From contig NZ_JMIY01000008.1 of the NCBI RefSeq assembly GCF_000685155.1, positions 55,651-119,650 on the forward strand: a DNA stretch of 64,000 nucleotides, in the 5' to 3' direction. The stretch is from Candidatus Methanoperedens nitratireducens. GTDB lineage: Archaea > Halobacteriota > Methanosarcinia > Methanosarcinales > Methanoperedenaceae. Each line of letters opens with the position of its first letter. Position 1 is the stretch's first letter. The notes beneath the pieces were generated by a model, which was given only the letters and a program-made list of their open reading frames with translations, ran no database searches and was not told the DNA's origin. The position numbers and the translations under genes are program-made. Shown here one piece after another: positions 2,384 to 5,865 of this stretch.

Positions 2384-3064
2384 TTATTCTTCTGTTCTCT
2401 GTGCTGCCACGAAAGCTTTTCTTGCATCGTCGTGGCGTCCCTGATGAAGACACGTCTCACCGCATTCACGGAGTATCTCCTTTGGCGGGATCTTATTAGC
2501 TATTTTGTATGCTTCTAACCCGGGAGAGGGAAATCCCTCATCGAAGCATTTATCACCGCAGGTAATGAGACCCTCCTCCGGTGGAGTTCTGTTAGCTTTT
2601 TTGTATGCCTCCAGGCCAGGATAGAGCTGCCCATCACTAAAACACTTATCACCGCAGGTAATGAGTTCCTCCTCCGGTGGAGTTTCATCAGCAAGACCAT
2701 AGGCTTCCATGCCAGGATAGAGCTTTCCTTGCAGAAGGCACTCCCTTCCAATCATGATGAGTTTATCTTTTAGAAGCGGTGTCCCGGTAATCTTAGAGCC
2801 CTCAATAGCAGAGTAGATCTGGCCTTCATCAAGATATTTATTAACATAGCCAGTAAGAACTTCTTTTGGAAGTTCTATCCCTGCAGCTTTAGAGCCTGCT
2901 ACGGCCCTGGATATCCATCCATTCTCAAGATATTTATGAATATAACCTTTGAGCTCCTCTTTTGAAAGCGGTACTCCGGTGGCCTCAGAGATCTCTATAG
3001 CCTCAGGCATCCGTCCTGCTTCAAGGCGCTCTTTGATATATATAATAAATTTTTCTTCTCCCAT
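2384..3064 (-). CDS. Helical 32-residue repeat protein
   Basis: A 226-residue protein made of six tandem units of 32 residues plus a partial seventh, each ending in a K/C-rich helix and a turn of the form (D/Q)G. Units 4-6 carry a repeated C-G-[DE]-x-C word (CGDKC, CGDKC, CGETC), while the first units lack these cysteines. The pattern resembles TPR- or Sel1-like alpha-solenoids, with two short helices per unit, and suggests a cytoplasmic scaffold. No signal peptide or membrane helix is seen. I do not recognise a named family. It lies 160 bases downstream of ftsZ on the same strand and could be read through from it. Confidence 0.75.
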   Translation of the reverse strand: MGEEKFIIYIKERLEAGRMPEAIEISEATGVPLSKEELKGYIHKYLENGWISRAVAGSKAAGIELPKEVLTGYVNKYLDEGQIYSAIEGSKITGTPLLKDKLIMIGRECLLQGKLYPGMEAYGLADETPPEEELITCGDKCFSDGQLYPGLEAYKKANRTPPEEGLITCGDKCFDEGFPSPGLEAYKIANKIPPKEILRECGETCLHQGRHDDARKAFVAAQRTEE

Positions 3065-3224: not shown

Positions 3225-4418
3225 CTATTGCATGAAATACCAGAGCAGAATGAATATTACCAGGAGGATCAGACCGATCCATATGTATGAATTACCTGTC
3301 TTCTCTTCCTCTTTCTTTATATCTTGCTCTGGCTCTTTGACTTTTACAGCGGGCTCTGGTTGAGGAGGTTCTACATCCTGTCTGACTGGCTCGGGTTTTA
3401 CCTCTTCAACAGCCTCTATAGCAACCGCTTTCTCCTTTACTTCTATCTCTCCTGATATAAATGGACTCTCAACACCTGTCAATACTGCCATTACACGGAC
3501 AGCGCCTGTCAGAGAGTGATCAACCTTTGCGCCCCAGATTATCCTCTTGGTATTCGGTACCTTATCCATTATCAGTTCGCCTGCTACCGCCACTTCCTCA
3601 AGTGTCAGGTCCTCTCCGCCGATTATGTGAACCAGCACACCGTAGCTTGCGGATACATCCCTTACATCGAGCAGTGGAGTGCTGATAGCCTGTGCAACCG
3701 CTTTCTCGACCCTATTCTCACCAACGCTTTCACCTATCCCGATTGATGATACTCCGCCGCGTTCCATGACTGCACGCAGATCAGCGTAGTCAAGGTTAAC
3801 AAGGCTTGGCTGAGTGATCGTATCAGTCAGGTTCTTTACAAATGCTCCTACAAGTGCGTTAGCAACATTAAGAGCTTCTTTTAATGGAAGGTTTCCTGCT
3901 ACTTCCCTTAATTTTGAGTTATCGATTATTACTACAGAGTCACATGACTGAGCAAGCAGCTGTATAGATTCCCTTGCCTTCTCTCTTCTTGACATCTCGA
4001 TTGTAAACGGGATGGTCACGCATCCGACGGTAAGGATACCCAGCTCTCGCGTGAGTTCAGCAGCTACCGGCATGGCGCCGGTCCCTGTTCCTCCACCCAG
4101 TCCTGCGACAAGAAATACAAGGTTTGTTCCTTCAAGTTCAGTCCTCAGATCGCTCAAGTTGTCTCTGGTTGCCTGCGCACCTTTCTCAGGGAAACCTCCG
4201 CATCCATGCCCTTTGCATAATCTTTCCCCGAGAAGAACCAGTTTATCAGCCTTCTGTATATGCAGGTGATTCGCATCGGTGTTTGCGGCAATTATCCTGC
4301 CACCGGCCATTCCTTTCTCTGCGATCCATGTCGTGATATTACAACCAGCACCACCAAGCCCGACAACAGCAACAGATGGTTTTGCGGTTTTTGCGAACTC
4401 TTTAATGTCTGTAACCAT
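3225..4418 (-). CDS. ftsZ: FtsZ with C-terminal transmembrane anchor
   Basis: A tubulin-fold GTPase of 397 residues that would polymerise at the division site. Seen: the T1 loop GGAGCN at 22-27, the GGGTGTG nucleotide signature at 108-114 (followed by AMP rather than the usual AAP), and the catalytic T7 loop NLDYAD at 208-213, so hydrolysis should be intact. The globular part ends near residue 320. It is followed by a Glu/Pro-rich linker (321-377) and one hydrophobic helix, IWIGLILLVIFILLWYF, at 379-395. Typical FtsZ ends in a short peptide that binds SepF or FtsA; here a membrane helix takes its place, which is unusual. The FtsZ core is certain; whether this is the main division FtsZ or a specialised paralogue is not. 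Confidence 0.92.
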   Translation of the reverse strand: MVTDIKEFAKTAKPSVAVVGLGGAGCNITTWIAEKGMAGGRIIAANTDANHLHIQKADKLVLLGERLCKGHGCGGFPEKGAQATRDNLSDLRTELEGTNLVFLVAGLGGGTGTGAMPVAAELTRELGILTVGCVTIPFTIEMSRREKARESIQLLAQSCDSVVIIDNSKLREVAGNLPLKEALNVANALVGAFVKNLTDTITQPSLVNLDYADLRAVMERGGVSSIGIGESVGENRVEKAVAQAISTPLLDVRDVSASYGVLVHIIGGEDLTLEEVAVAGELIMDKVPNTKRIIWGAKVDHSLTGAVRVMAVLTGVESPFISGEIEVKEKAVAIEAVEEVKPEPVRQDVEPPQPEPAVKVKEPEQDIKKEEEKTGNSYIWIGLILLVIFILLWYFMQ

Positions 4419-4545
4419 TTTTAAAGCCTCCTTCGAAAATACAGTATTTAAATAGCTGTTTTAGTATATAAGTTTTTCAACTGCACAGAATTTTTCAAGC
4501 AGGACTGATTATAGAATAAGAATATTCGAAGCTACTGCTGCAGGC

Positions 4546-5865
4546 TCATGCTCCGAATTTTTTCATCATTTTTTGGATGTTGAATTTGCCTCCCTTCATA
4601 CCTTTAATGGCCTTTTGCATCATCTTGTGGTATTTAAGAAGCTCTCGTACATCCTCATAGTTTGTTCCTGATCCACGCGCGATCCGTGTGATTCTCGAGC
4701 TGTTTATATGTCTTGGGTCTTCCAGTTCTTTATCTGTCATGGAGTCCATAATGTACTTATAGGTGCCAAGTTTATCCTGGGTCACGCTGTACATATCATC
4801 AGAGATTTTCATTCCGAGTTTACCCATGGGCAGCATCTGCATTATCTGCTTGAGAGGCCCCATTTTGTTCACGGCTTCAAGCTGTTTATACATATCTTTC
4901 AGTGTGAATCGCCCGCTGAGCATTGACTCCATATCAATGTCTTCACTCTTCAGGGTATCTTCTGCTTTCTCAATAAGGGACTTGATATCCCCCATGCCCA
5001 GTAAGCGGGAGATGAACCTGTCTGCTTCGAACTTTTCAAGGTCATCCGTGGTCTCGCCAATACCGATGAAAGCAACTGCGGAATCAGTCTCAGAGACTGC
5101 TGATAACGCGCCCCCGCCTTTGGCAGTACCGTCAAGTTTTGTTATGACCACACCTGTTATCCCTATGGATTTATCAAAGGCCTTTGCCTGCTCGCTTGCG
5201 AGCTGACCCATAGCCGCATCCAGGACCAGGAGCTTATGATCCGGCTGAGCAGTGCTGTGGATATCCTCCATCTCCTTGATAAGATCCTTCTCAAGGGCAT
5301 GTCTTCCAGCCGTATCGATTATCTTGACATCATATTTTTCAATGGCCAGCAGTCCCCGCTGTGTAATTGCCACAGCATCCTCTACATCCTTCTCACCATA
5401 GAAGAAGATTCCCAGCCGATCGCATAGCGTTTTTAGCTGGTCAAATGCCCCGGGCCTGAACGTATCTGCGCAGATAACCGCTGCTTTTAATCCTTTCCTC
5501 TGGAAATAGCGCGCTAACTTTGCAGTCGTTGTTGTCTTACCACTTCCCTGCAGCCCTACCATCATTATGGTCTGGGGGGCAAGCCTGACATTCGCACTCT
5601 TACCCAGGATATTCACCAGTTCCTGGTAGACAATGCGTATCACATGCTCCCTGGGGCTCATCCCGCTCGGTGGGGGTTCCTTGAGTGAGCGCTGCTTTAT
5701 CCTCTGGGATAATGTCATTACAAGCTTGACATTCACATCAGCCTGCAGGAGAGCACGCTGGATATCCTTCACTACTTCGTTCACTACATTTTCATCGATT
5801 CTACTTGCACCAACGAGTTTCTTAAGTGCATCCTGAAGCGAACCGCCTAGTTTATCAAGTACCAT
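4546..5865 (-). CDS. srp54: Signal recognition particle GTPase SRP54
   Basis: This 439-residue protein recognises signal sequences on nascent chains and brings ribosomes to the membrane through FtsY. The N-terminal helical bundle covers about 1-95. The G domain has the P-loop GLQGSGKTT at 104-112, the DTAGRH G3 motif, and TKLDG at G4. The Met-rich M domain (about 300-439) has many Met residues and the basic helix [17 protein letters not shown] that binds 7S RNA. Length is normal. Downstream on the same strand, after a 127-base gap, comes ftsZ. Confidence 0.97.

Follow-up and report, generated by a model that had tools for sequence, protein, structure and literature searches.

The window (the whole 64,000-nucleotide stretch of DNA analysed here, from Candidatus Methanoperedens nitratireducens) carries an ftsZ gene whose product is strongly predicted to bear a fused C-terminal membrane anchor. 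The protein falls in a third archaeal FtsZ clade, and the conservation of this tailed FtsZ beside the normal division proteins suggests a second, self-anchored cytoskeleton. The reading that we favor, with a probability of roughly two in three, is that the tail-anchored FtsZ tethers a distinct filament system to the membrane and probably assembles together with soluble paralogues.

Results

The window protein has an FtsZ core and a predicted membrane-spanning tail

The window protein scored 334.8 bits against the NCBIfam equivalog TIGR00065 (cut-off 295.2), and 127.5 and 93.1 bits against the Pfam families PF00091 and PF12327, each above its own cut-off. These matches, together with the GGAGCN, GGGTGTG (T4/G-box) and NLDYAD (catalytic T7, NxDxxD) motifs, bear out the view of the first-pass annotation that the GTPase core is intact. 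The T7 Asp residues and the nucleotide loops are all invariant, and from the intact catalytic motifs we infer that the protein would polymerise in a GTP-dependent manner. The nearest solved chains by sequence, 1fsz and 1w58, both annotated as FtsZ, matched at E values of about 1e-79 over query residues 5-337, the tail lying outside the matched region. Identity with CetZ was set aside on the score above the cut-off of 295.2, a comparison made with the FtsZ model only; the tubulin-like matches of other genomes of the phylum fell below that cut-off, mostly at less than 100 bits. The gene begins with ATG behind a Shine-Dalgarno sequence (Table 1), and most orthologues have a GGAGG-type site ahead of their start codon. 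The T3 loop carries a C-x2-H-x-C motif, for which a redox or metal role is possible. Its last residue, C73, is present in 100% of the third-clade rows of the alignment and in none of the FtsZ1 or FtsZ2 rows, where the position is occupied by Ala, or by Ser in one FtsZ1.

Table 1. Coordinates in the window of the third-clade ftsZ gene and its parts
Feature	Position	Strand	Evidence
Third-clade FtsZ with predicted C-terminal membrane anchor, 397 aa	3225..4418	(-)	ORF, profile matches, alignment, tree
GTPase and FtsZ C-domain core, residues 1-322	3453..4418	(-)	Pfam/NCBIfam; dN/dS 0.04
T3-loop subfamily signature CKGHGC (C68, H71, C73)	4200..4217	(-)	alignment
Disordered Glu/Pro/Lys-rich linker, residues 323-377	3288..3452	(-)	pLDDT <50; dN/dS 0.17
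Predicted C-terminal transmembrane helix, residues 378-396, aromatic belts Y378/W380 and W393/Y394	3231..3287	(-)	hydropathy, orthologues, AlphaFold2
Shine-Dalgarno AAGGAGG	4427..4433	(-)	8 nt 5' of ATG

The hydrophobic segment YIWIGLILLVIFILLWYFM occupies residues 378-396 of 397, so that the protein has the layout of a tail-anchored protein, with a single transmembrane (TM) helix that lies no more than about 30 residues from the C terminus. A Glu/Pro-rich linker followed by a helix at residues 379-395 had been described before; our measurement agrees to within one residue, and the linker is about 55 residues long. The segment has a KD17 value of 2.81. On the Hessa scale its 19-mer sum was -4.1, which was reached by 0 of 20,000 shuffles of the tail, and sums of -2.7 to -5.4 in the orthologues predicted insertion in 26 of 26. 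AlphaFold2 placed an isolated helix at residues 375-396 (pLDDT 87-94) behind a linker below 50; the model was built from 16 close rows and its core is poor (mean pLDDT 57), and it is used here for order and disorder of the tail only. Among orthologues the linker varies in length and sequence, and the helix keeps its hydrophobicity and its aromatic belts. The dN/dS values of core, linker and TM helix (0.04, 0.17 and 0.25) indicate purifying selection that includes the tail. The N terminus, MVTDIKEFAKTAKPS, is hydrophilic and carries no N-terminal signal. An N-terminal amphipathic helix of the OdinFtsZ1 type is absent: only about 15 residues stand ahead of the core, and the hydrophobic element is C-terminal.

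A GID/IID-like C-terminal end is the kind of motif by which archaeal FtsZ binds SepF (PMC8178401). Reference FtsZ1 and FtsZ2 proteins from the phylum end in this way and have no TM helix (30 of 30), and no GID/IID peptide of the SepF-binding type was found in the TM tails, the peptide-bearing (CTP) tails or the short tails of the third clade. Because the TM helix is conserved under purifying selection, the SepF-type tail is missing, and the 30 reference proteins have no such helix, the fused anchor is well supported, and we consider the case for tail-anchored membrane insertion to be strong.

The gene and its tail are conserved in a narrow set of archaea

The closest relatives of the window protein, 74-96% identical, are encoded in metagenome-assembled genomes of Ca. 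Methanoperedens. In an order-level search the gene was found in 30 of the 31 genomes of the genus, the one without it being 68% complete, and linker and TM helix are kept in all 30; these include one genome in which the frame is broken upstream (G106) and one in which the contig begins inside the gene (G102). A diverged copy in another genus of the family (genome G092, genus g3) has also kept linker and helix. At that locus (L145:210-1926) a gap of about 145 bp separates the end of an upstream, tail-less third-clade ftsZ from the TM-ftsZ, which is on the same strand. The sister genus g2 and other Methanosarcinales yielded no close relative of the third clade; there the profile matched weakly, mostly at two genes each. 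Matches with E <= 1e-95 among 394 genomes of the phylum were confined to Methanoperedens and one ANME-1 genus, and across about 500 sampled phylum genomes the third clade is restricted to the Methanoperedenaceae and that ANME-1 genus. A scan of viral contigs yielded no relative, and viral carriage was rejected on that ground. An SRP54 gene lies directly upstream of ftsZ in the window (4546-5865). Of 27 orthologue loci, 14 have a clear SRP54 match ahead of ftsZ and the other 13 gave none, so this neighborhood does not settle whether SRP54 is a functional neighbor. On the other side, window positions 2384-3064 encode a repeat protein of 226 residues with no Pfam or NCBIfam match; among the relatives, only the closest (L077) showed it downstream of ftsZ.

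Two explanations that dispense with a membrane anchor can be weighed here. That the tail is a product of a frameshift or misassembly deserves hardly any credence: we found nothing in its favor, and the same tail, under purifying selection, recurs in the 30 genomes of the genus and in a second genus, which rules the artefact out. Both outcomes that the first-pass annotation had named as damaging, a frameshift that removes the helix and relatives whose FtsZ stops before it, are absent among the orthologues found. It is also very improbable that the segment is a buried packing helix or a peptide-binding element. At 17-19 residues it is short, and many orthologues have a positive residue at the end; however, it comes after a disordered linker of 55 residues and consists of non-polar residues throughout, with aromatic belts. 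Insertion is predicted for every orthologue scored, and the segment stands as an isolated helix in the AlphaFold2 model. One property does speak against a tail anchor: many orthologues end in K or R while the near side of the helix is rich in Glu, and the positive-inside rule does not favor a C terminus on the outside.

The third clade contains putatively anchored and soluble paralogues

A tree of 69 rows placed the TM proteins, the CTP proteins, the tail-less proteins and further short paralogues in one clade apart from FtsZ1 and FtsZ2 (support 100/100), and the window protein fell inside neither of those two clades. The stem of the third clade measures 1.3 changes per column; long branches meet there, which leaves its exact sister unsure. 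Five FtsZ genes are present in the window genome; they encode FtsZ1, FtsZ2, the window protein, a paralogue of 379 residues that ends in KAAVLSKEK, and one of 326 residues that ends directly after the core. Its TM, CTP and short proteins are mutually 69-79% identical. Up to nine FtsZ-type matches occur per Methanoperedens genome, and two more lineages of short third-clade paralogues (L127-L151) are present in many genomes of the genus.

Cores and tails of these proteins do not follow the same tree. The TM and CTP proteins of G092 pair by core (100/98), and the two ANME-1 copies likewise pair by core, yet their tails belong to types that are present in other genomes. AU tests rejected trees that hold all TM proteins together (p-AU 1e-4) or all CTP proteins together (p-AU 0.005). 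Two explanations are at hand: the cores were homogenised within genomes, or the tails were swapped or gained anew. In G092 no conversion tract of near identity was visible. Homogenisation of cores within genomes is what co-assembly of the paralogues would predict.

SepF, FtsZ1 and FtsZ2 are retained

The window genome has one SepF, and its FtsZ1 and FtsZ2 have ends of the GID/IID type. The fused anchor had been interpreted previously as an alternative to SepF, with SepF possibly missing from genomes that have the tailed FtsZ. The anchor itself has stood up, on the conserved helix, the selection and the lack of a SepF-type tail. SepF, however, is present in 21 of 21 high-quality Methanoperedenaceae genomes as well as in the window genome, and its replacement by the fused anchor was rejected. 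SepF, FtsZ1 and FtsZ2 having been retained, the window FtsZ therefore adds to SepF-based division and does not replace it. The presence of several third-clade paralogues points to an extra filament system, not to another way of anchoring the ordinary Z-ring.

A two-TM protein has nearly the same distribution as the third clade

The window genome encodes a 115-residue protein in which two TM helices are followed by a long helical tail (L188:1489-1836; C4:252634-252978). No Pfam family matched it above the cut-off, and AlphaFold2 modelled a helix at residues 5-32 followed by a single long helix at 38-114. In ANME-1 (L076:1173-5089; L149) the gene order is a divergent ftsZ2, ftsZ3a, a two-TM gene (117 residues) and ftsZ3b; ftsZ3a has a long linker ending in KKKRAPLFGR and no TM helix, and ftsZ3b has a CTP-like tail. 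Homologues of the two-TM protein were found in 31 of 31 genomes of the genus and in both ANME-1 genomes; they were found in neither of the two genomes of sister genus g2, nor elsewhere among 247 sampled phylum genomes. A 67%-complete g3 genome that holds a third-clade FtsZ gave no match. The distribution is nearly that of the third FtsZ clade, and at the Methanoperedens loci examined the two-TM gene is unlinked to ftsZ. By guilt of association, the two-TM protein is a candidate membrane partner of the third-clade FtsZ.

Discussion

The general view is that FtsZ cannot reach the membrane without an adaptor; in archaea, SepF has been described as the adaptor that co-occurs with it. FtsZ-mts, which Osawa and colleagues reportedly engineered in 2008 by fusing an amphipathic membrane-targeting helix to E. 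coli FtsZ, has the same adaptor-free design of core, linker and fused anchor as the window protein, but it is artificial, and its anchor is amphipathic, not transmembrane. A native TM-anchored FtsZ beside SepF, in a third clade, would be the natural counterpart of FtsZ-mts and would offer a test of adaptor roles beyond tethering. We found no description in the open-licence papers searched of a native FtsZ with a TM span, nor of a third archaeal FtsZ clade. Adaptor-free FtsZ as such is already known. OdinFtsZ1, also a native FtsZ, needs no adaptor to bind membrane (PMC12583498), but it does so through an N-terminal amphipathic helix on an FtsZ1, whereas the window protein is of the third clade and has a C-terminal TM helix behind a long linker. 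In mycoplasma FtsZ and chloroplast FtsZ1, as cited in PMC12583498, a terminus binds membrane directly, as we propose here; the passages on them describe membrane-targeting sequences or C-terminal membrane binding and mention no TM span. With the canonical archaeal FtsZ1/FtsZ2 and SepF system (PMC8178401, PMC8187382), which is co-resident in the window genome, the window protein shares the fold, the nucleotide loops and T7; it differs in its separate clade, its own TM helix, the lack of a GID/IID tail and Cys73 in the T3 loop.

In the mechanism that we envisage, the GTPase core would build protofilaments at the cytoplasmic face in a GTP-dependent manner, a tether between core and helix would be provided by the disordered linker, and the single C-terminal helix across the membrane would hold the filaments there without SepF, FtsA or another adaptor. 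The anchored subunit most likely co-assembles with the soluble paralogues, which are tail-less (about 326 residues) or end in a short C-terminal peptide, and so fixes their filaments to the membrane. Core identities of about 70-80% and gene linkage (the tandem in L145) argue moderately for such co-assembly. The two-TM helix-tailed protein could be a partner of the mixed filaments, and the whole might act as a cytoskeletal or division-accessory system; a role in the cell beside the retained FtsZ1/FtsZ2/SepF ring is weakly suggested. More tentatively, and at somewhat below even odds, one could envisage that anaerobic methanotrophs, namely the Methanoperedenaceae and the ANME-1 genus, possess a second FtsZ cytoskeleton that is independent of SepF. 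It would be made of TM-anchored, tail-less and peptide-tailed FtsZ with a dedicated two-TM, helix-tailed membrane protein; anchored and soluble forms would co-polymerise, and membrane attachment would depend on the ratio between them.

Retention of SepF, FtsZ1 and FtsZ2 leaves the need for a fused anchor unaccounted for under our preferred reading, and two other functions have to be considered. The intact FtsZ fold and motifs, and the position of third-clade genes next to ftsZ2 in ANME-1, would suit a division FtsZ of the lineage with a built-in anchor that gives a redundant or improved hold on the ordinary Z-ring. We regard this as unlikely, given that FtsZ1, FtsZ2 and SepF are all still there, that the third clade is separate and multi-copy, and that sister genus g2 does without it. 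Nor do we think it probable that the window protein is a membrane-bound regulator that forms no long filaments of its own and, at the membrane, recruits or caps those made by FtsZ2 or by the soluble paralogues; anchorless paralogues with similar cores do occur in the same cell, and being fixed by a TM helix might curb exchange and treadmilling, but the invariant T7 Asp and nucleotide loops and a core dN/dS of 0.04 are as for an active polymerising GTPase.

Other FtsZ-like proteins invite comparison. CetZ and FtsZl1/FtsZl2 are also extra FtsZ/tubulin paralogues, suspected to act in cell shape or membrane remodelling (PMC9871819, PMC2875224). The FtsZ-tubulin homologues of Borgs, described as large and Borg-borne (PMC9605863, PMC12660748), are also linked to Methanoperedens; the window gene is chromosomal, and the two are set apart here by description. 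The third clade represents a lineage-specific expansion among the filament proteins of archaea important to the methane cycle, and it comes with a candidate partner in the membrane. According to PMC11208441, whose text leaves the paralogue unspecified, tubulin/FtsZ belongs to the Methanoperedens genes that are better expressed in situ.
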